IMG/VR virus record: IMGVR_UViG_3300033143_003536
Span: 1-42,817 of that record
Length of the DNA stretch: 42,817 nucleotides
From: a virus
Strand: one strand, 5' to 3'
Shown here: positions 7,284-36,649 of the stretch, one piece after another
Position numbering within the stretch: position 1 is the stretch's first letter
How the letters are laid out: the number at the start of each line of letters is the position of its first letter
Program-made: the position numbers and the translations under genes
Notes under the pieces: generated by a model
Seen by the model: the letters and a program-made list of their open reading frames with translations, nothing else
Told to the model about the DNA's origin: nothing
Database searches by the model: none

Positions 7284-8489
7284 TTAAGGTCGTCTGTTTT
7301 GTCGTGGCATCTTATAATAATTCTGCCTCGGTTTTTCTGTCTCAGATTTATACAGTCCTTTGTATAGTCTATACATTCCAATGTTCTCAGCTGAGCCATC
7401 TCCGAACAACATACTTGAATAGAAACTGGTATCGAAGCCAGTGTCCTCACCTTGGACTTGGGGTCCAACAAGAAGCATTGCTTCATAAAGAAGAATGTTA
7501 TAAGTCTCTGTATCTAGGTTAATCAAATTAGAATCATCATCTACATTCTCTAAGAAAGCCCCAGTGAGTGCGTCTCTGAACATATACTTTGTGTAGTACA
7601 CAATTTCAAATACGGTTCCAACTTGTGCGACAATGTCATCTATTCGGTAGTCAGTATTAGCTGTTCCGTCATACGTTACAATAGGTCGTAGATAATTTAT
7701 AGCTGACACATCAGGTGAGCCAACCTGGGTTGCAATACTCCAGTCAAATCTAAATCTATTCCAACCGTTTTGTACTCCCAGTTTGTCATGAGTCTCAGTG
7801 ACTGTAACTTCCCAGTAAGCTGAAGCTCCTGAACCCCATCGTAATGTGAGGCTCGTAAACTCTGAAGCATCAGGTACCCATACTCGGACAAAGATAGCAC
7901 CAATGTTTAACTGTTCTGTTAAATCAATAGGTGTCATAGTGGAATTCTCTAAGTAGCCCTCAGTTGTGAGGCCATCTAAATCAAATCGTAGAGAGGCATT
8001 ACCTGAAACTTTATTGAGTGTATCTTCTGATAGATTCTGTGCATCTCCTCCGACTGCCCATGCACCATTACCTCCGATGCTATCCATTCTATGTAGTGTC
8101 ACTCCTGCAACCATCCCCTCCTTTGCTATGTTAAGAAATTTAATACTACTATCCATTGCTACCGTAAAGAGATTGTCTGCATCGCTTTTGTTTATATCAA
8201 ATGCTTCACCGTATGTCTGAGTAAAGTTATCGCTCTGTCTTCTATCTACCTGCGGTCTGATGTCTATGATTCTATTCCCCTTCAAGTCAACAGGTGAAGT
8301 GTACCGATACACATTGTCATACAATGGTGTATCAAGCTGACTTATTCTGCGTGTCTCGTGAGGGTCTAATCTTATGAGGACATTACGAGCAGCCTCATCC
8401 AAGAGACCATCAACATCCTGCACTTTTGAAAGTGTTGTGCCGTGTAGCTTTCTCGTTATGTCTGCTTTTAATGTTCCTACTGAATACAT
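7284..8489 (-). CDS. Head-tail adaptor-like protein with beta-sandwich insertion
   Basis: 401 aa if started at the ATG at 8489 (MYSVGTLKADITRKLHGTTL). The frame is open to 8531, but that longer start would overlap the upstream gene and adds an unlikely leader. The N-terminal ~110 residues are helical with LLDEAARNVL and RISQLDTPLYDNVYRYTSP. A central beta-sandwich of carbohydrate-binding-module type follows (LTLRWGSGASAYWEVTV and NGWNRFRFDWS). The C-terminus returns to helices (NILLYEAMLLVGPQVQG, MYRLYKGLYKSETEKPR). Helices flanking an inserted jelly-roll, upstream of the nozzle gene, suggest a tail adaptor displaying a sugar-binding-like domain. The assignment is inference. Confidence 0.6.
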   Translation of the reverse strand: MYSVGTLKADITRKLHGTTLSKVQDVDGLLDEAARNVLIRLDPHETRRISQLDTPLYDNVYRYTSPVDLKGNRIIDIRPQVDRRQSDNFTQTYGEAFDINKSDADNLFTVAMDSSIKFLNIAKEGMVAGVTLHRMDSIGGNGAWAVGGDAQNLSEDTLNKVSGNASLRFDLDGLTTEGYLENSTMTPIDLTEQLNIGAIFVRVWVPDASEFTSLTLRWGSGASAYWEVTVTETHDKLGVQNGWNRFRFDWSIATQVGSPDVSAINYLRPIVTYDGTANTDYRIDDIVAQVGTVFEIVYYTKYMFRDALTGAFLENVDDDSNLINLDTETYNILLYEAMLLVGPQVQGEDTGFDTSFYSSMLFGDGSAENIGMYRLYKGLYKSETEKPRQNYYKMPRQNRRP

Positions 8490-11891: not shown

Positions 11892-12821
11892 TTACACACT
11901 ACCATCTGAACCAACGATTGCATTGTAATCCAATGCTCCTGTCATTTCTCGGAACTCACCTTTGTAGATGTAGTTGTTGTTACGTTGTAACCTCCAATCT
12001 ACTAAGTCAGTTGAAACATCTTGTCGAACCCAACGTGTTGCAGAGTGGTTGTCTCCAAGGAGGAACCAAGCTGTGTCAGAACCGCCAGCTACAGCACCTA
12101 AGTAAGGTGAAGTTGCTAGGTTGATTCCATAACGTGAGCTATAGATATTGATGTTGTTATCAGGAGTATCAGCCTGTAATTCTGAATCCAGAATTGTAGC
12201 TGCTGTCTTGAACAACGCCAACGGTACAAGAAGAGTAGCTGGGATATTACCACGAATGGTACCATCCTGTGCTTTCATCTCAGCAAGTGCGATAATCGCA
12301 GTGTTAAGTGAAGCCTCTGCTAGTACAGCTGTTATCTTATTGTCGATAGTGTCTCCGTTAAGATTAACGTGAGAGTCAGAAATCAACGACACTCCATCGG
12401 CTGTAAGTGTAGTTGAGAAAGCGTTTCGATAAAGCCCCATTGCATTTGAGTCTCGTGTAATACGAGCTGTTTCTGCCATGTCAGTAACCATCTTTTCATA
12501 CGCTCCATGCATGTTGTCATCAAAGAAGTTCTTAGGAACATCTATTGACTGTGCATAGTTCACTACGTTGAAAGTGATTTGGTTACTAATTCGAGCGTTA
12601 GCTTGAGCAACATCTTGTTCCTCTGCTCGTTCGCTCCAAAGACCTGTGCCTTTGAATACCTCCTGAATTTCAGCTGCTTTGTCTGTTGAGTCTTGCTTGA
12701 AGACCATAGGTGACTGTGCATCTACCCATCCTGGGTGCATACGTCCGTCAAACTCTTGTTTGAAAACGTCATCCAACGCAGTCTTAACTACATTGGGATT
12801 TAGTTTGCTTGAATAACTCAT
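11892..12821 (-). CDS. Major capsid protein (HK97-like)
   Basis: 309 aa (MSYSSKLNPNVVKTALDDVF). The pattern fits an HK97-fold capsid protein: an N-terminal arm, an E-loop-like stretch (GTGLWSERAEEQDVAQANAR), a spine helix (NMHGAYEKMVTDMAETARI), the segment SLISDSHVNLNGDTIDN, then helices and strands ending TDLVDWRLQRNNNYIYKGEF. Gene order scaffold-decoration-capsid supports the call. It is preceded by the decoration gene (10 bp) and followed by a strong hairpin. There is no cleaved prohead-protease signature and no protease gene, so assembly is probably scaffold-driven. Confidence 0.88.
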   Translation of the reverse strand: MSYSSKLNPNVVKTALDDVFKQEFDGRMHPGWVDAQSPMVFKQDSTDKAAEIQEVFKGTGLWSERAEEQDVAQANARISNQITFNVVNYAQSIDVPKNFFDDNMHGAYEKMVTDMAETARITRDSNAMGLYRNAFSTTLTADGVSLISDSHVNLNGDTIDNKITAVLAEASLNTAIIALAEMKAQDGTIRGNIPATLLVPLALFKTAATILDSELQADTPDNNINIYSSRYGINLATSPYLGAVAGGSDTAWFLLGDNHSATRWVRQDVSTDLVDWRLQRNNNYIYKGEFREMTGALDYNAIVGSDGSV

Positions 12822-16570: not shown

Positions 16571-18040
16571 TTATCTTTTCTGGAAATATCCTGACATTTT
16601 TTTCTTGAAAACTTTTGCGTGCTGGAAGGAGCCAGTGTTCTCTACTGCTTCAAGTTGGGAGGCTAAATTATCTATTCTGTCATCATGTCTTCCTTTTGGA
16701 AATTGGAGGAATTCTCTGCGGAGGTCTCTTTGGCTCGGTCTGAGAAAGATGACACCTGCATTGAATAGGGGCAGGAGACCACGTATACGCTGTTCTTTGG
16801 CAGTTCTGGTATTACGCTTCAACTCGTGCACTGTGAAGTACGCCATGCGTCTTTTCTGCTCTTCGATGATGTACCATTTGAGCATCTTCTGATAGGCAAC
16901 AGTCTCGATGTAGACCTCGCTTCGGTACTGATTCTGGTGCCGAAAGATAATGTCGGCAGTTTGCCCTGGGTCAAATTTTCCTGCGGTTTCTTCGACCACA
17001 TACCAGTTCGGCCCATCCGCTTGTTTGCCGACAGTAGTGATGACCGTGTTGTCACCTTTCGCTTGTCCTGTTGCTGGGTCGACAGTAGTTGTGTACCTGA
17101 GATATTGTGGCTGGATATCTTCTTCTTCAAAAGTCTTGAACATCTCTTGTCTGAACTCCTGATTCTCGGAGAGAATAGGATTCTGCTGATAGAGTGATGC
17201 CCAGTCATGAACAGTAATATTTTCTTTAATATTATTAAGTGTCGGTTTTGGAAATTTATTTGGCCATAACGCCTCACCTTCTTTTCTGTGTTCTTCATCG
17301 TGTTCCGCTATAGCTGGAAATCTAACAACATCCCATTCATCTGTGAGGGATTGTTCCTCTTTGTTATCTCCCGATTCATTAAGAACTCTACCGACAAGGT
17401 CATCGAGATGCCATCGGGTCATGATAATAATTATAACTCCTGACCCTTCGAGTCGTGTGTAGAGAGTTGATGTATACCACTCATATATTTTTTGCCTTAA
17501 GGATTGCGAGTCAGCTTCTTCTCTATTTTTTAGTGGGTCATCAATGATAGCAATCTTCGCTCCGAAGCCCGTGATGGCACCACCAACACCGACAGAGGAG
17601 TATGAGCCACCGTTAGTAGTTATCCATTTATCTTTCGCCTTTGAGTCTTTTCGGATTCTAGTTTTCGGGAAGATGGCTGGATAGTTTGGATTCGTTTGGA
17701 TGATGTCTCGGGCCTTCATGCCGAAAGACTGAGCAAGGTCGGCTGAATATGACGTAATTATAAAAGGCCACTCAGGATGTTTTCCGAGGGCATAGGTCGG
17801 GAAGAGAGTAGTGGCTGTGTGGCTCTTGCCGTGTCGTGGCGGCATTTCTAGGATGAGTCGGTATGGTTTATCCTGTTCGGCCATTTCAATGGCGTGTTCG
17901 AGCTTCTCAGCAATAACCTGATGATGCCAGTTGGCTTCATAGTTAGGGTCAATGACCTGACAAAAGTTAATGAAATTATTTCTCGCTGCACTCGTTAGAA
18001 AGTCTGATTTGTTTGGCAGCTTCTCTTTGGATGATTGCAT
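16571..18040 (-). CDS. terL: Terminase large subunit (packaging ATPase/nuclease)
   Basis: 489 aa. The N-terminal ATPase has Walker A MPPRHGKS (residues 66-73), Walker B IAIIDDP (163-169) with the catalytic acidic pair, and a coupling motif region VIIIIMTRWH (202-211). The C-terminal nuclease has TTTVDPATGQAKGDNTVITT (first metal-binding Asp) and DDRIDNLASQLE (last Asp). It cuts concatemeric DNA and drives it into the prohead through the portal. The start at 18040 has a good Shine-Dalgarno sequence (GAGGAG, six bases before ATG). It overlaps the small-subunit gene by 65 bp. Confidence 0.95.
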   Translation of the reverse strand: MQSSKEKLPNKSDFLTSAARNNFINFCQVIDPNYEANWHHQVIAEKLEHAIEMAEQDKPYRLILEMPPRHGKSHTATTLFPTYALGKHPEWPFIITSYSADLAQSFGMKARDIIQTNPNYPAIFPKTRIRKDSKAKDKWITTNGGSYSSVGVGGAITGFGAKIAIIDDPLKNREEADSQSLRQKIYEWYTSTLYTRLEGSGVIIIIMTRWHLDDLVGRVLNESGDNKEEQSLTDEWDVVRFPAIAEHDEEHRKEGEALWPNKFPKPTLNNIKENITVHDWASLYQQNPILSENQEFRQEMFKTFEEEDIQPQYLRYTTTVDPATGQAKGDNTVITTVGKQADGPNWYVVEETAGKFDPGQTADIIFRHQNQYRSEVYIETVAYQKMLKWYIIEEQKRRMAYFTVHELKRNTRTAKEQRIRGLLPLFNAGVIFLRPSQRDLRREFLQFPKGRHDDRIDNLASQLEAVENTGSFQHAKVFKKKMSGYFQKR

Positions 18041-20991: not shown

Positions 20992-21067
20992 GTGATACAC
21001 ACAATGTGTGATACGTGATAAAAGAATTTTGAGGGTTCAGTTACGTATCACACATTGTGTGTATCAC
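20992..21067. repeat. Perfect 25-bp inverted repeat
   Basis: The arms 20992-21016 and 21043-21067 are exact reverse complements, with a 26-bp spacer. Each arm is itself close to palindromic (CACACAATGTGTG core, flanked by ATAC/GTAT). It lies directly downstream of the DUF2958 gene and upstream of the next promoter. There is no T-run, so it is more likely an operator or protein-binding site than a plain terminator; as RNA it would form a very stable hairpin. Confidence 0.8.
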
Positions 21068-21087
21068 ACACAATAACTGGTAGGTGG

Positions 21088-21134
21088 AATAGAGACTAGC
21101 TTGACAAACACAATGAAAAATGCTAGTCTCTATT
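21088..21134 (+). promoter_or_regulatory. Promoter of the accessory operon with built-in operator
   Basis: TTGACA (21101-21106), 17-bp spacer, TAGTCT (21124-21129). A perfect 13-bp inverted repeat, AATAGAGACTAGC (21088-21100) and GCTAGTCTCTATT (21122-21134), sits just upstream of the -35 and across the -10. A dimeric repressor bound there would block RNA polymerase. The transcript would begin near 21136, leaving a leader of about 240 nt before the first gene at 21374. Confidence 0.75.
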
Positions 21135-21273
21135 TAGCACCGACAAATTGATACACAGAAATGTGTATACAATGATGAGGAAGATAGTTATTAAAATTAA
21201 AAAATAAAACTATCCACGGGGTACGTACACGACAGTGGTTATAAGTAAATGCAACCCTACCACTTATCATTAT

Positions 21274-21335
21274 TGTATACACGTTTGTGTGTACCACACA
21301 CATATGTATACACGTTTGTGTGTACCACACACATA
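21274..21335. repeat. Two perfect tandem 31-bp repeats
   Basis: 21274-21304 and 21305-21335 are identical and abut. Each unit starts TGTATACACGTTTGTG and contains the self-complementary TGTGTGTACCACACACA, so each can form a hairpin. They lie in the leader of the accessory operon, 39 bp before the first gene. A related shorter motif (ATACACA / TGTGTAT) is upstream near 21154. Candidate regulator-binding or RNA elements. Confidence 0.8.
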
Positions 21336-22589: not shown

Positions 22590-23570
22590 ATGGAGACATT
22601 ACAAAAAATTGGTAATGTCTATGTTAAAGCAAGTAACCTTAAAGTATTGAAGACATGTATTGAAATTAACGAACCCGTCTTATTGCAAGGGCAAACGGGA
22701 ACGGGGAAGACACTGTTAGTTTCAAACTTAGCGAGCAATCAACCGACACACACCAAACTTATCAGGGTCTCATTGAACGGCAACACATCAACCGAAGAAA
22801 TTATTGGGAGATGGTTAGTAGAAAATGGCACCACAGTGTGGCAAGACGGGGTACTTATCACAGCGATGAAGTTAGGATATTGGATAGTGTTCGATGAGAT
22901 TAACTCCGCACTACCAGAAATTCTTTTCACATTGCACTCTCTCTTAGATGATGAGAGGGCAGTGAGACTAGCAGAAAAAGATAATGAGTATGTGAAAGCA
23001 CACAAAAACTTTAGATTCTTTGCGACAATGAACCCACCCGATGAGTACGCAGGTACCAAGGAGATGAACAAGGCATTGCTATCACGATTCAATACCGTGA
23101 TTAACATAGATATACCAGATGAGGGTACCGAGAGTACTCTTATCCAAGAGCAAACAGAAATCACACCATCACAAGCTACCAAGTTAGTGATGATGGCAAC
23201 ACAACTTAGAGAAGCGAAAAAGAAAGAAGATATTTTCTACTACTGTTCGACAAGGGACTTAGTACACGCAGGAAAATTATTGAGAAAGAAAATACCAATT
23301 AAACATGCGGTACTCTTTGCGATACTCAATAAGATGGGAGAGCAAGAGCAGACAGTAGTAAAAACATTGATAGAGAAGACACTAACGCTACCCGATGATG
23401 AGATACGGAGTTACAGTGAACTTAAAGAACAGTACGATAAACTCACGAGCGAGACAGCACAACGAGAGACAGAAATTAAAATGCTCAAACAGAAACTAGC
23501 GAACATCAGTGAAGATGTTATCGAACAGATGAGAGGGGTATTATTAAGTAGAAGCGAGAAGGGATTATAG
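22590..23570 (+). CDS. CobS/MoxR-like AAA+ ATPase
   Basis: 326 aa. Walker A GQTGTGKT (34-41), Walker B WIVFDEIN (98-105), sensor-1 FFATMNPP (143-150), and LLSRF with the probable arginine finger (Arg166). The TMNPPDEYAGTKEMN stretch is typical of the MoxR/CobS/AAA_5 branch. The C-terminal ~80 residues form a coiled coil (SELKEQYDKLTSETAQRETE). This group works as a hexameric remodeller with VWA-domain partners; in cobaltochelatase CobS acts with CobT. A CobT-like VWA gene follows 201 bp later with one small coiled-coil gene between. No CobN is present, so the client is unknown. Confidence 0.9.
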   Translation: METLQKIGNVYVKASNLKVLKTCIEINEPVLLQGQTGTGKTLLVSNLASNQPTHTKLIRVSLNGNTSTEEIIGRWLVENGTTVWQDGVLITAMKLGYWIVFDEINSALPEILFTLHSLLDDERAVRLAEKDNEYVKAHKNFRFFATMNPPDEYAGTKEMNKALLSRFNTVINIDIPDEGTESTLIQEQTEITPSQATKLVMMATQLREAKKKEDIFYYCSTRDLVHAGKLLRKKIPIKHAVLFAILNKMGEQEQTVVKTLIEKTLTLPDDEIRSYSELKEQYDKLTSETAQRETEIKMLKQKLANISEDVIEQMRGVLLSRSEKGL

Positions 23571-23571
23571 T

Positions 23572-23766
23572 ATGAACAACAACAAAGATAAATCAAAAGT
23601 AGTAGAAATGCTAATTGAAAAAGTAAAAGAAAAAGAAGACAAGTATGTGAACGAGTGGATTGAGGTAGTAAAAGCACAAGAAGAAATCCTTAATAGAGCA
23701 CAAGCCGAAGGACTTGATATAAAAAGATTAACAGAAAAAATGAAAGAGAAGTACGAAACAAAATAA
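23572..23766 (+). CDS. Small coiled-coil protein between AAA+ and VWA genes
   Basis: 64 aa (MNNNKDKSKVVEMLIEKVKE). A single highly charged helix (EDKYVNEWIEVVKAQEEILN, RLTEKMKEKYETK). It may be a subunit or adaptor of the AAA+/VWA pair because it is sandwiched between them with 1-4 bp gaps. No family recognised. Confidence 0.65.
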   Translation: MNNNKDKSKVVEMLIEKVKEKEDKYVNEWIEVVKAQEEILNRAQAEGLDIKRLTEKMKEKYETK

Positions 23767-23770
23767 TATT

Positions 23771-24691
23771 ATGAACAAGGCAACATTCAATGCCAAGCTC
23801 ATATCAGTGATGAAAGATAACATGTTCGACCGAGAAATTGGACACCAACGCAGTGGGAAATTAAACAGTCGAGCATTATTCAAAGCAGGTTTTTCAAGTA
23901 AGTTATTCAAGAAAAAGTTAGAGCGGAAAGGAAAAAATTACACGCTCTCTTTACTTGTTGACTGTTCAGGTTCAATGGCAGGTTCAAAAATGAGACACGC
24001 TATTGATTCAACAGTAGACTTGATGAAAGCGTTTGATAAAATACCGACACTTAAATATGAGGTAGTAGGATTCAACACGTTTGACTTTGAAATCAAACCA
24101 TATGAGGTAGGCAAGGGCATAAAAAGTATAGAAGATGAAAGAAAAATAAGAGCATTGATGGGTAAGATATCAAGTGGAGGAGGAGGTGATAGCGTATACT
24201 TTATTGAAGATATGACCGACAGAAAACTCTATCCACCACCTATCTTAATAGGGCAAGAAGCATACGAAAAGAAATGGAACGAGCTTAAAGGATTAGGGCA
24301 TGAGTTAGACACCGAGCACACATGTCAGGGGAATTGTGATGGGTATACAATCGAGCGAGCAGTTGAGAGACTTAAGAAAACACACCCGACTACCACTGGC
24401 AAGGAAGGAAAGATAATGATAGTGATGTCAGATGGCAGACCGAGTTTTGATAACTCACTTAATTGGTACATAGACGGAGACAAAAAGAAACGCAAGTACT
24501 TAGACATTAACCTTAAAGATACAGTAGATAGAGCAATCAGGAACGAACACATTGCATTCGTAGGGGTAGGGATACAAACAGATATTGTATTCAACTATTA
24601 CCCGAAAGAGAATTGTGTTGCAGTCGAAGACACCGATGAACTCTACGGAGCGATAGCGAAATTACTAGACAAACATATCAAAAGAAAATGA
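23771..24691 (+). CDS. CobT-like VWA-domain protein
   Basis: 306 aa. The N-terminus has GHQRSGKLNSRALFKAGFSS, like the segment preceding the VWA domain in CobT. The MIDAS metal site is complete: LLVDCSGSM (D64, S66, S68), NCDGYTIERAVERL (D190/T193) and IMIVMSDGRPSFDN (D221). The C-terminal strand IAFVGVGIQTDIV is also CobT-like. The usual acidic N-terminal region of CobT is absent, so it is a shorter form. VWA proteins of this type recruit substrates to MoxR/CobS-type ATPases; the neighbour at 22590 is the evident partner. About 30 residues (DRKLYPPPILIGQEAYEKKW) are inserted before the third motif. Confidence 0.88.
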   Translation: MNKATFNAKLISVMKDNMFDREIGHQRSGKLNSRALFKAGFSSKLFKKKLERKGKNYTLSLLVDCSGSMAGSKMRHAIDSTVDLMKAFDKIPTLKYEVVGFNTFDFEIKPYEVGKGIKSIEDERKIRALMGKISSGGGGDSVYFIEDMTDRKLYPPPILIGQEAYEKKWNELKGLGHELDTEHTCQGNCDGYTIERAVERLKKTHPTTTGKEGKIMIVMSDGRPSFDNSLNWYIDGDKKKRKYLDINLKDTVDRAIRNEHIAFVGVGIQTDIVFNYYPKENCVAVEDTDELYGAIAKLLDKHIKRK

Positions 24692-30315: not shown

Positions 30316-30461
30316 GACTTATCAGGTGCCCTAATGTAAACTGTGGAAGGGAGAACTACGCTATAAATGTACCATCAGGAGTGTGCACATGGTGTGGATT
30401 TAATAGTAATATAGTAAAAGAATATGACAGCAAAAAAAATAGCAGAAAACAAACCAAGTAA
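30201..30461 (+). CDS. Zinc-ribbon protein overlapping its neighbour
   Basis: 86 aa (MEEEYKTIKEGKSDIRFIRK). YGYLNDDGSIGLIRCPNVNC (CxxxxC) followed by SGVCTWCGFNSN (CxxC) makes a four-cysteine zinc ribbon. It overlaps the upstream zinc-ribbon gene by 115 bp in a different frame and the next gene by 38 bp. Composition looks like a real protein throughout. Confidence 0.6.
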   Translation: MEEEYKTIKEGKSDIRFIRKEYKKSRLGYGYLNDDGSIGLIRCPNVNCGRENYAINVPSGVCTWCGFNSNIVKEYDSKKNSRKQTK

Positions 30462-30858
30462 AGATGGTTCTTACCATCAGAAAGAAATTGATAAGACAGT
30501 AGCAAGTGTTAAAAAAATAATGGGAGGAAAGAAAGGGAAAGGATTTATAGTTGTTGCCTCACCAGATGGTGAGAATAATATTGACTTACAAATTGTTGCA
30601 CACAATGTCAATGGTGTGTTCGTTAAGGAAGTATTGAACACTACAGTTGATGACTTAGCAAAAAGTCAGGTGGATTTAGATGAAGACTGTGACTGTCGTA
30701 ACTGTCGAGACAATAAAAATAGAGGAGACAAGATGTTACAAGTGATGGAGTTGTTAGAAAATATGAACAAGAAGGAGGACTTTGATAAGAGAGAGGAAGA
30801 CATAAGCAAAAACTTCAACAGTCTCATTAAAAAATTAAGGAGAAATAACCATGACTAA
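30424..30858 (+). CDS. Hypothetical protein, paralogue of the next gene
   Basis: 144 aa. The central part (GKGFIVVASPDGENNIDLQI, VAHNVNGVFVKEVLNTTVDD) matches the 81-aa gene that follows (GGFVIVANFDHMEGTIKVTA, SAHNMPLGAIEEAVERSL). The C-terminal CDCRNCRDNKNRGDKM carries a small Cys cluster and then a charged coiled coil. It is probably a tandem duplication. Function unknown. Confidence 0.65.
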   Translation: MTAKKIAENKPSKDGSYHQKEIDKTVASVKKIMGGKKGKGFIVVASPDGENNIDLQIVAHNVNGVFVKEVLNTTVDDLAKSQVDLDEDCDCRNCRDNKNRGDKMLQVMELLENMNKKEDFDKREEDISKNFNSLIKKLRRNNHD

Positions 30859-31096
30859 GCACAAATACACAGAAGATGTGGCACATGTACCTAACGACAT
30901 AGCAAAATCAGAAGCGATTGATTTAATTGATGGGGTCTTTGACAAGAAGAAAGGTACTGGTGGTTTTGTTATTGTTGCAAACTTTGACCACATGGAGGGG
31001 ACTATTAAAGTTACTGCATCAGCACACAACATGCCACTTGGTGCAATAGAAGAAGCCGTTGAAAGGTCTCTCAAAAATTTTAACAAATCAAAATAA
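30851..31096 (+). CDS. Hypothetical protein, paralogue of the previous gene
   Basis: 81 aa (MTKHKYTEDVAHVPNDIAKS). See the 144-aa gene for the shared motif; here the Cys cluster and coiled-coil tail are missing. The start has a good Shine-Dalgarno sequence (AAGGAG, eight bases before ATG) within the end of the preceding gene. Small alpha/beta domain. Confidence 0.65.
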   Translation: MTKHKYTEDVAHVPNDIAKSEAIDLIDGVFDKKKGTGGFVIVANFDHMEGTIKVTASAHNMPLGAIEEAVERSLKNFNKSK

Positions 31097-31406: not shown

Positions 31407-31727
31407 ATGGATGATAAAAAAAAAGAGAAGGTGCATTGGATGGCAATCTCAAAGGAAGACAAGGAGTATACCAAGCTCACCTGTTATCGCAGCGTGAACA
31501 TCGAAGCCTTTGTTAATGCTATAGAAAGAGAGAATGTTATTATGGGTATCAATTTTGATGGAAGTAATATATGTTTTGTTCTTGATGATAAGCCAAAAGA
31601 AGAAGAGAAAGAACTACCACGAGGTGAGGATGATAAGTCTATAGTAAGTGGGGACCCCATCACCGTGATAAAAGATAAAGATAATCCCTTTAAGAATAAA
31701 AAGAAACATGGAGGAGGAAGGAAGTAA
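31407..31727 (+). CDS. Hypothetical protein
   Basis: 106 aa (MDDKKKEKVHWMAISKEDKE). Has YRSVNIEAFVNAIERENVIM and GINFDGSNICFVLDDKPKEE, then a charged tail ending in KKKHGGGRK. No family was recognised. It directly precedes the three-helix RNA region; its stop codon is at the left border of the first arm. Confidence 0.6.
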   Translation: MDDKKKEKVHWMAISKEDKEYTKLTCYRSVNIEAFVNAIERENVIMGINFDGSNICFVLDDKPKEEEKELPRGEDDKSIVSGDPITVIKDKDNPFKNKKKHGGGRK

Positions 31728-32114
31728 GTAGTTCCCACCACGCCCACCCCGATGGAATTTATTTATTATTATTATTTTTAATGTGATAGATTATTCTGGC
31801 AATATTTCAAACATTTTGTATTTGGGTCGGAGTGGGCATGGTGGGAGTTACTCTCCTCTCATCCTCAATCAATTTATTATTTAATATTTAATAGGCCTTC
31901 CCCGACCGATTAAATTCTTCAAAATTTGTAATGTAGTTGATTGAGGGTTAGAGGGGAGTACATAATATTGGTTAGCAGAATCAGGGGGGTAGAATAGTGA
32001 TAAGGTAACACCCGTCTTACAAGGCATAGAATGAGGAGGTAGGTACTTATGCTCATCAGATGGAATTTGGGTAACCACAAATCCCAATTCACTCCTCTGA
32101 GTCTGCTAATCAAT
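31728..32114 (+). ncRNA. Candidate structured non-coding RNA with three long helices
   Basis: A gene-poor ~390-nt segment holds three consecutive inverted repeats. Helix A pairs 31728-31752 with 31827-31851 (25 positions: 21 Watson-Crick, two G-U, two C-A mismatches). Helix B pairs 31849-31872 with 31937-31960 (24 positions: 21 Watson-Crick, two G-U, one mismatch). Helix C pairs 31967-31984 with 32097-32114 (18 positions: 16 Watson-Crick, one G-U, one mismatch). A' and B touch, and C starts six bases after B', so the helices could stack on each other. Loops of 74, 64 and 112 nt hold further small hairpins (e.g. ATTTG / CAAAT, 32065-32082). The type is not recognised; its phage setting close to a tRNA-like gene recalls large ornate phage RNAs, but no family match can be claimed. 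Confidence 0.6.
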
Positions 32115-32117
32115 TAA
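32049..32117 (+). CDS. Mini-ORF inside the structured RNA (possible leader peptide)
   Basis: 22 codons (MLIRWNLGNHKSQFTPLSLL). It is preceded by the best Shine-Dalgarno sequence in the region (AGGAGGT, 32034-32040, eight bases before ATG). Its stop codon abuts AAAGGAG, the ribosome site of the 38-aa gene at 32130. GAGGAG (32033-32038) can pair with CTCCTC (32092-32097), so its own ribosome site can be hidden. Translation is not proven. Confidence 0.35.
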   Translation: MLIRWNLGNHKSQFTPLSLLIN

Positions 32118-32129
32118 AGGAGAAAAGAA

Positions 32130-32246
32130 ATGAAGATGAAAGCAAAGGATTACAGAGTGATTGTGTACCAAGCAATAACATTCGTAGTTATGATGGTTAT
32201 GTTTGGATATTGGATGGACTTTTGTATGTATAGATGTATCTATTAA
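32130..32246 (+). CDS. Tiny membrane protein
   Basis: 38 aa (MKMKAKDYRVIVYQAITFVV). Basic N-terminus followed by a hydrophobic segment (IVYQAITFVVMMVMFGYW) and a Cys-containing tail (DFCMYRCIY). Good Shine-Dalgarno sequence (AAAGGAG, eight bases upstream). It lies immediately after the structured RNA region, so that region may control it. No family recognised. Confidence 0.6.
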   Translation: MKMKAKDYRVIVYQAITFVVMMVMFGYWMDFCMYRCIY

Positions 32247-32260
32247 AAGGAGAGACAGAG

Positions 32261-32464
32261 ATGAGAACGTGTGACCAGTGTAAGCAACTGATATACGACA
32301 ATGAACACTTCGTGTATCATGACAATAAATTTTATCATAAGAGTTATTGCTATGGTCTTTCAAAACAAGAACATCATAGAGTATCTACTCGTAATGCCAT
32401 ACAAGCATCACAAGATATAGATGACTATGATGCAGATGATGAGAACTTGGGAGATGTTCTTTAA
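32261..32464 (+). CDS. LIM-like zinc-binding protein
   Basis: 67 aa from the ATG at 32261, which has AAAGGAGAG nearby; an upstream start at 32234 lies inside the previous gene. RTCDQCKQLIYDNEHFVYHD then KFYHKSYCYGL places CxxC, His and HxxxC as in half of a LIM-type zinc finger. Acidic C-terminus (DIDDYDADDENLGDVL). A strong hairpin follows the stop codon. Confidence 0.65.
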   Translation: MRTCDQCKQLIYDNEHFVYHDNKFYHKSYCYGLSKQEHHRVSTRNAIQASQDIDDYDADDENLGDVL

Positions 32465-32473
32465 GAAAAACCT

Positions 32474-32506
32474 GGACATTCACTTGTATGAATGTCCATA
32501 TTTATT
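32474..32506 (+). terminator. Hairpin terminator before the tRNA-like gene
   Basis: A perfect 9-bp stem GGACATTCA (32474-32482) and TGAATGTCC (32489-32497) with a 6-base loop, followed by ATATTTATT. It begins 9 bp after the LIM-like gene stop codon. The U-run is interrupted, so termination may be partial. Confidence 0.6.
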
Positions 32507-32510
32507 CATG

Positions 32511-32609
32511 GCCAAGGAAAATGCACGGTGACATTGCCATCTACGAGGTGGAGATTACAGATAGCTAGTCTATGTCTGTATGTAGTAGGTTCAACTCCTA
32601 TCCTTGGCT
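32511..32609 (+). tRNA. tRNA-like gene with long variable arm, isotype uncertain
   Basis: Acceptor stem GCCAAGG (32511-32517) with CCTTGGC (32602-32608). T-arm GTAGG TTCAACT CCTAT (32585-32601) with a canonical T-loop. D-arm AATG / CATT with a GG-containing loop. The variable region folds into a ~9-bp arm (TACAG/CTGTA plus ATAG/CTAT). The anticodon arm is imperfect: the canonical 7-base loop CTACGAG would give anticodon ACG (Arg), with only four paired positions and no base at position 26. Alternatively CCATC/GGTGG pairs but leaves a 5-base loop. A long variable arm is normal for Leu, Ser and Tyr but not Arg, so it may be a divergent or decayed tRNA or a tRNA mimic. CCA is not encoded. Confidence 0.5.
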
Positions 32610-33479: not shown

Positions 33480-34682
33480 TTATTCATCTTTCATGAGAGT
33501 CATGTGGAAATCCTTACGTTCTACTGCTACCCTTTGGTACACTTTCTCATCGACAGTACCCTTTACTACTAAGTAAACATATAGATTTTTCTTTGGGTTA
33601 TCTATTCTTTGAATTCGACCCAGTCCCTGTAAGTATTCTACTAACCCGAAGTCTAATGAGTAGAAGCACATCACTGGACATTCTTTAAGTTCCCAACCTG
33701 TACATGTTTTGGCCTGTGCCAGTAAGACGTACTTATCTTTCTTCTTTAGTTCTTCTATTACTTTCCCCTGGTCTACATGGCGTGAGCCATTTATTATATA
33801 AACCTCGAAGCCTTTGTGTTCTAACTCTACCTTGAGCATGTCTATCTCTGCGTTGTATCTGCACACTACTATGAGTTTCTCATGCTCCTCCGCAAGAGAA
33901 ATTACACGTCCTGTCTTGTCACTCTCTGGATATCTGGTGTCTTCATACTCATTACCTTTGATAGTACCACCACATATCTGATGGTGCTTGCCGTATCTTA
34001 CAAGAGGTGCAAGCTCATCGGCAATCTTGAACTCTTTTTTTTGTTGTGCTGTGACAGCAAAGTATTCAACTTCATGTACCTGTTCTGGAACATCAACACA
34101 ATCTTCAAGCTTTACCACGTTGCCAAAGACACGCATCACCTTCGCTAATTTCTCTGCTATCTCTGGTTTTGCTACTGATATAAACCTGTGTCCCATTTTC
34201 ATTTCAACAAAAAACTCTCTCTTGAATGAGGGGTATGACAATCTCTTTCCTTCTATGTCAAGTAGTTTGTTGGCTTGAAAAATATTCCACGGTGTGCTCC
34301 TGTACGGGGTGGCCGTAAGAAGATACCTGTATTCTATATCCCATTTATTAAGATACTTCTGCATAGTCTTATTCATTTGGGACTTCATGCCGAAATGAAA
34401 ATGTGATTCATCTATGACAAGAGTCTTGCAATCTTCAAGCTCATCCCAAAATTTTTTGAACTCTTCTTTTGTATACAAGCTATAGCCTACCTCGCTGTAT
34501 TTTTTTAGTTCTATCTCCCAGCCTAGCTTTAATCCTTTGGGTACCACATAAATAGTATGACCACCTGCTTTGTTTGCAAGTGTAATGGCAGTGATTGTCT
34601 TACCCGTACCTGTCCCGTGGGCTAGTAGATATCTGTGTGGAAATTTATCTACTAATGCTTGTTGATGTTTGTATAATTTCAT
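33480..34682 (-). CDS. SF2 (SNF2/DEAD-like) helicase
   Basis: 400 aa. Motif I GTGTGKT (23-29), motif II DESH (91-94), motif III TATPYR (123-128), and a second RecA-like half with LIVVCRYNAEIDMLKVEL, AQAKTCTGWELKE and motif VI QGLGRIQRIDN. This is a compact SNF2-type helicase/translocase as found in many phages near replication genes, probably remodelling DNA ends, forks or bound proteins. It starts 8 bp after the AAA+ gene ends. Confidence 0.9.
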   Translation of the reverse strand: MKLYKHQQALVDKFPHRYLLAHGTGTGKTITAITLANKAGGHTIYVVPKGLKLGWEIELKKYSEVGYSLYTKEEFKKFWDELEDCKTLVIDESHFHFGMKSQMNKTMQKYLNKWDIEYRYLLTATPYRSTPWNIFQANKLLDIEGKRLSYPSFKREFFVEMKMGHRFISVAKPEIAEKLAKVMRVFGNVVKLEDCVDVPEQVHEVEYFAVTAQQKKEFKIADELAPLVRYGKHHQICGGTIKGNEYEDTRYPESDKTGRVISLAEEHEKLIVVCRYNAEIDMLKVELEHKGFEVYIINGSRHVDQGKVIEELKKKDKYVLLAQAKTCTGWELKECPVMCFYSLDFGLVEYLQGLGRIQRIDNPKKNLYVYLVVKGTVDEKVYQRVAVERKDFHMTLMKDE

Positions 34683-36085: not shown

Positions 36086-36649
36086 TTAACATAATTCTTT
36101 CACAGCAGTTAGAAAGTCACAGCTCTTCAGGTACATGTAGATAGCAATCGAATCGAAACTTCCACACCCACCGAAGCAGTGCACTTTATTTTGTTTTTTA
36201 TATAGATGTAATGATGGTGTTTTCTCTGAATGAAATGGACATATAATGTCGCTCCCTCTGTTATCAAAAGTAAGAAATGCTGTAATGGGATGTGCCCTCG
36301 CTCTCTCTATATCTTCCTGTGTTATTCTTTCCATCCCTTTCTTTGGTGGTCGTGCTATTTTTTGAATCCTTTTATATTTTTCTATCTCATGGTTCGCTTG
36401 TGACATAGGTCTCCTCACATACTCATATAAAATCCGTGCCTCAGTGTCATCATCGTACCACTCCTCTTTTATCTTGTGCTCTAATTTTAAGAGCCAGTCT
36501 AATTTCTGCCTCTCTTCCTCTATCTTGTCATCAAGTAAACCGATGAACCCTTTGAATTTATATATGCTTACCAGTTCATACTCACTTGTGCTATTTCTTT
36601 TTTGGCTTGGAGAACTGAATGCTGATTTGTACAACTCGTTCATCTGCAT
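36086..36649 (-). CDS. DNA primase zinc-binding domain protein (no catalytic domain)
   Basis: 187 aa. A ~125-residue helical N-terminus is followed by a CHC2-type primase zinc domain: DIICPFHSEKTPSLHLY (C137, H140) and KVHCFGGCGSFDSIAIYMYL (C158, C162). It ends there; no TOPRIM or polymerase domain follows and none is found elsewhere in the genome. The usual CHC2 spacing is CxxC, here CxxxC. Domain order is reversed from DnaG (zinc domain last). It may recruit host primase or give sequence specificity to the AAA+ helicase downstream (81-bp gap). Confidence 0.75.
   Translation of the reverse strand: MQMNELYKSAFSSPSQKRNSTSEYELVSIYKFKGFIGLLDDKIEEERQKLDWLLKLEHKIKEEWYDDDTEARILYEYVRRPMSQANHEIEKYKRIQKIARPPKKGMERITQEDIERARAHPITAFLTFDNRGSDIICPFHSEKTPSLHLYKKQNKVHCFGGCGSFDSIAIYMYLKSCDFLTAVKELC

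Follow-up and report, generated by a model that had tools for sequence, protein, structure and literature searches.

What is the role of three long inverted repeats that follow each other, almost without spacing, in the early operon of a phage? They had been described, from the letters of the DNA, as an RNA region of about 390 nt encoding no convincing protein, in a setting comparable to that of large ornate phage RNAs such as GOLLD and ROOL. The region was analysed within the window, i.e. the whole stretch of DNA under study, a viral record 42,817 bases long that is linear in IMG/VR. The three hairpins, here indicated as A, B and C, are real, far beyond chance; their most likely function is ordinary, and their form is unusual.

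Genome setting

The window belongs to an orphan tailed phage, where the following landmarks were recognized:

11892-12821, structural genes (mainly minus strand), major head protein
16571-18040, structural genes (mainly minus strand), terminase large subunit
from about 21.4 kb to 33 kb, + strand, long early operon made up of short ORFs
33480-34682, minus strand, helicase, in the convergent block after the early operon
36086-36649, minus strand, primase zinc finger, in the same convergent block

No close IMG/VR relative was found for any of the proteins used as bait, the best matches reaching 41-42% identity for the helicase and 45-46% for the terminase.

Within the early operon, a CobS/MoxR-like ATPase precedes a protein whose CobT-like matches are weak (22590-24691 of the window), and two adjacent ORFs, 30424-30858 and 30851-31096, contain a related stretch (KKG-GF-V-A...AHN, 30% identity) of no credible family. 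The leader of the operon carries two further very strong inverted repeats (20992-21067 and 21149-21296), made of units that resemble TGATACACA. A sigma-70-like promoter (TTGACA...TAGTCT) separates the two, and tandem copies occur at about 21271-21335. These leader repeats look like operators or iterons.

Geometry and significance of the hairpins

The succession of three long imperfect stems was confirmed between 31727 and 32114:

31727-31852, + strand, hairpin A, with an AT-rich loop of 72 nt
31849-31960, + strand, hairpin B, with an AT-rich loop of 60 nt, its first 4 nt being common with the end of A
31967-32114, + strand, hairpin C, with a loop of 100 nt

The arms of helix A (31727-31753 and 31826-31852) face each other over 27 positions, corresponding to 22 Watson-Crick pairs, 3 G-U pairs and 2 C-A mismatches. 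Helix B (31849-31874 and 31935-31960) has 26 positions, with 22 Watson-Crick pairs, 3 G-U and 1 C-U, and helix C (31967-31990 and 32091-32114) has 24, with 20 Watson-Crick pairs, 3 G-U and 1 A-G. The lengths of 25, 24 and 18 bp given in the original prediction need revision for helix C, which is longer than the 18 bp assigned to it; the overlap between A and B is real and measures 4 nt (31849-31852) instead of 3, and the gap of 6 nt between B and C was found as described.

The 5' arm of B is similar to the 3' arm of C; a similarity of this level is attained by 0.0005 of shuffles, in one comparison out of seven. A switch of the two hairpins by way of these arms was considered and is not favoured, since the duplexes that it would form (-13.7 and -22.9 kcal/mol) are much less stable than the native duplexes (-36.8 and -33.6 kcal/mol).

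Stems were searched over the window by a finder allowing G-U pairs, with a span of up to 260 and a threshold score of 30. Only five stems in the whole 42.8 kb score at least 30, and A, B and C are three of these; the best stem in 60 whole-window dinucleotide shuffles scores 26.9, less than any of the three. RNA folding of 31720-32125 yielded a z value of -7.0 for the + strand and one of -7.9 for the minus strand, and none of 100 shuffles folds as well. On the + strand, mean pair probabilities are 0.73, 0.92 and 0.94 for A, B and C respectively, and remain nearly the same in a context of 1.07 kb. The loops do not fold more stably than their own shuffles (z of -1.3, +0.1 and +0.5 for A, B and C), which indicates that the stems, and not the loops, appear to matter.

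These results bear on the explanation that the stems arose by chance or as functionless by-products of inverted duplications. The similarity between the arms of B and C might be taken as a trace of such events, and no homologue shows that the stems have been kept. However, no shuffled window out of 60 reaches the weakest stem, three stems in a row occupy one single spacer, and their deviations are biased towards G-U pairs; this origin is accordingly regarded as improbable.

Strand and coding potential

Taking the three stems together in the + sense, that of the operon, deviations from Watson-Crick pairing include 9 G-U against 2 A-C, a small sample for which a one-sided sign test gives a value of about 0.03. 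The excess noted at first sight for B and C holds, each helix having 3 G-U pairs against a single other mismatch, and both reach the stem threshold on the + strand only. Helix A behaves differently, scoring 37.3 on the minus strand and 34.1 on the + strand; it gains in regularity on the latter strand's complement, the minus strand, because both its internal mismatches are C-A. On the whole, the G-U deviations favour an RNA read with the operon on the + strand, within the limits of a small sample.

No convincing protein is encoded, as initially proposed: the largest internal ORFs, of 68 and 64 aa, lie on the minus strand and start from TTG. The purine bias shown on the + strand by the coding neighbours is lost within the segment, where the AT skew is -0.07 as compared to +0.25. 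The description of the region as a non-coding and strongly structured segment of a phage early operon is thus supported, and its reading from the + strand is probable.

Long repeats of this kind could also work as DNA, by extruding cruciforms or by binding proteins in replication, recombination or packaging. The better score of helix A on the minus strand would agree with this, as would the strong palindromes present elsewhere in the window, at 20992-21296, which resemble protein sites. Against a DNA element stand loops of 60-100 nt, too long for easy cruciforms, deviations in B and C that are of the G-U type in the operon sense, and the exact fit of the hairpins to an operon spacer, described below; such a role is given a low probability.

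Relation to the neighbouring genes

Around the hairpins, the end of the operon is organized as follows:

31407-31727, + strand, upstream ORF of 106 aa, of no known family
32117-32123, + strand, ribosome-binding site AAAGGAG, read by eye, directly 3' of helix C
32130-32246, + strand, downstream ORF of 38 aa, hydrophobic, with no Pfam match
32261-32464, + strand, second small ORF, of 67 aa when its start is the one behind its own ribosome-binding site, or 76 aa from the first ATG
32473-32498, both strands, two-way intrinsic-terminator-like hairpin closing the operon
32510-32609, + strand, degenerate tRNA-like structure, best matching tRNA-Sec at 25.4 bits (gathering score 47)

The TAA stop codon of the upstream ORF occupies 31725-31727, its last base being the first base of helix A. 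At the other end, the AAAGGAG site following helix C is unpaired in the predicted fold; the hydrophobic ORF that it precedes probably encodes a membrane microprotein. This exact fit from stop codon to ribosome-binding site, together with the loss of the purine bias, identifies the segment as an operon spacer filled completely by the three hairpins. No intrinsic terminator (GC-rich stem, short loop, U-run) was found within 31727-32114, and the terminator-like hairpin is located about 360 nt downstream of the helices.

The tRNA-like gene that had been placed downstream of the segment corresponds to a structure actually present at 32510-32609, featuring a perfect acceptor stem, a good T arm and a long hairpin resembling a variable arm. 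Its D and anticodon arms are poor, its score is below the gathering level, ARAGORN at default settings calls no tRNA there, and it lies beyond the terminator. This degenerate element is probably separate from the hairpins.

A candidate processing element in the operon transcript

The reading preferred here, at a probability of about 45%, is that the segment is an intercistronic element of the mRNA that host RNase III probably cleaves and that insulates two tiny genes at the 3' end of the operon. The early operon mRNA, read from the + strand, would contain an untranslated spacer of 390 nt folding into three adjacent long hairpins, and each stem, exceeding two helical turns, is a putative substrate of the host enzyme. 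Cleavage would divide the polycistronic mRNA into a long upstream message, whose 3' end would be protected, and a short message with the two small ORFs that precede the terminator at 32473-32498. Helix C ends just before the next ribosome-binding site, leaving it free; as helix A starts at the stop codon, terminating ribosomes would open its base. In this way the element would determine how abundant and how long-lived the upstream messages are in relation to the downstream ones.

Bacterial RNase III readily accepts stems of this length as substrates, and sites of this kind are used in the transcripts of T7 and lambda. An RNase III site was defined as a near-perfect stem of at least 20 bp within a transcribed spacer: the three stems comprise 24-27 positions each, and transcription of the spacer is deduced from gene order. 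The proposed processing is further supported by the exact fit to the spacer of a co-directional operon, by three stems that rank among the window's five strongest, are unreached by shuffles and pair robustly in the 1.07-kb context, by the 9:2 ratio of G-U to A-C in the + sense, with B and C above threshold on that strand only, and by the position of the terminator. Unstructured loops are expected if the stems are what matters. Distant relatives also have single long-stem hairpins in gaps between longer ORFs. On the other side, cleavage would need no more than one long hairpin, yet three are present; moreover, helix A scores higher on the minus strand, and the 9:2 ratio comes from a small sample.

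As in the RNase III sites of T7 and lambda, long stem-loops without a U-run are found here in a spacer of a phage polycistronic mRNA, near gene ends. The T7 and lambda sites are single irregular hairpins, whereas the window has three side by side, with stems of 24-27 positions and loops of 60-100 nt, and their cleavage is putative. If processing does take place, this would be an unusually elaborate mRNA spacer, with three full-length double-stranded stems in series insulating two microprotein genes, carried by a phage without a close relative in the collections searched.

Comparison with known phage RNAs

Alternatively, the same structure could be a discrete non-coding RNA, about 390 nt long, that is excised from the operon transcript and acts in trans, its three arms binding a protein or a host RNA during infection. 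A strong and compact structure with almost no spacers, the lack of coding capacity, and a length and phage setting like those of other phage non-coding RNAs are in its favour. To be set against these are the lack of a match in Rfam, loops not structured beyond chance, promoter-like sites that are as frequent in shuffles, the missing terminator inside the segment, and the lack of any homologue in the collections searched. A trans-acting RNA is judged less likely than a processing element.

In particular, no match was obtained in the window at the gathering score of Rfam 15, and neither GOLLD nor ROOL appeared at E values up to 5. The matches to miRNA families produced by relaxed E values are what any long hairpin yields, and nothing credible was among them. 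ROOL has been described as a highly complex RNA containing multiple pseudoknots, and GOLLD and ROOL often occur close to tRNA islands (PMC12286853). The window shares with them a non-coding phage RNA located near a tRNA-like sequence. A member of these families would be expected to have a large, multi-branched and pseudoknotted fold; the fold predicted here, from nested pairs, consists of three simple hairpins. A single degenerate tRNA-like element is found nearby, beyond the terminator, and no tRNA was called. The likeness to these families, suggested by the setting in the original prediction, is thus unsupported.

A DNA similarity search of phages and plasmids gave no match to the segment, and a 20-mer taken from the junction between A and B had none in IMG/VR. 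Homologues of the segment were absent from every collection searched, also when the neighbouring proteins were used as bait in IMG/VR. A match of 29 nt to the same junction in contigs G008 and G009 (E of 0.001) falls in a coding-dense, GC-rich region without stems, and was attributed to chance.

Hairpin arrays in related phages

Long stems with loops of at least 30 nt were searched in relatives and in six unrelated phage stretches, most of which have none or one. Two GC-rich contigs, G007 and G008, whose terminases are related to that of the window (45-46% identity), contain instead arrays of 5 and 6 adjacent long hairpins, respectively, which include three permuted tRNAs:

L026 4020-4746, minus strand, hairpin array of G007
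L026 4234-4406, minus strand, permuted Arg(UCU) tRNA hairpin, G007
L028 17470-18324, minus strand, hairpin array of G008
L028 17666-17816, minus strand, permuted Lys(CUU) tRNA hairpin, G008
L028 18162-18324, minus strand, permuted Gly(UCC) tRNA hairpin, G008

Each array lies at the end of a tRNA series with about 20 members, encoded on the same strand as the array, and G007 also has a tmRNA. Within its outer arms, each hairpin carries the flanks GGUUGUAA...GUUACUUC...UAUCGCC, with small variations. The outer arms covary: arms of the same hairpin pair at 12.5 of 14 positions, as compared to 8.2 when arms are swapped, and as many as four standard pair types occur at a position. In 3 of the 11 hairpins the enclosed sequence is a circularly permuted tRNA, with its 3' half first, while the remaining ones bracket other RNAs, either structured or short. 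ARAGORN calls the permuted tRNAs, as full cloverleaves, only after rotation (in the trial construct, the Lys acceptor is without its first pair); unrotated and shuffled cargo gave no call. By an exact pattern, the motif together with a hairpin was found only in G007 and G008 across IMG/VR and the GTDB representatives, the other matches being without a hairpin. RNA ligase and RtcB families were not found in G000, G007 and G008, with the proviso that PF09511 gave nothing in control genomes either.

Could hairpins A, B and C be a member or a relic of such arrays, each stem bracketing a cargo RNA to be released or circularised? Back-to-back long stems, long loops, bases shared at junctions and a neighbouring tRNA or tRNA-like element are common to the window and to these terminase-related phages and, among the sequences scanned, clusters of adjacent long-loop stems occur in the window and in the G007 and G008 arrays only. 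The arrays, however, are characterized by conserved flanks and structured cargo, including permuted tRNAs, and the window has neither: a descriptor scan of both strands for GGUUGUAA, GUUACUUC and UAUCGCC with paired outer arms found none, the loops of A, B and C gave no tRNA call when rotated, on both strands, and loops A and B are short AT-rich sequences. Such a kinship has a small probability. It is also very doubtful that the hairpins are part of a wider class of phage tandem-hairpin arrays, from which the bracketed RNAs would be cut out and possibly circularised.

Permuted tRNA genes were listed for archaea and algae, and for no bacteria, in a 2014 review (PMC4033280), so that the arrays pose the question of how a bacterial phage would mature permuted tRNAs. 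In the literature naming both permuted tRNA and phage, titles and abstracts report no phage case.

The single long-stem, long-loop hairpins of distant relatives, located in gaps between longer ORFs, were found at 7300-7429 of L021 (also delimited as 7297-7432) and at 8966-9077 of L022. Beside the former, at about 7515-7565 of L021 (contig G005), a very short tmRNA-like tRNA structure (GGGGGGTGATT...GGCGTTCGAATCGCC...CCCCCGCCA) can be recognized by eye.
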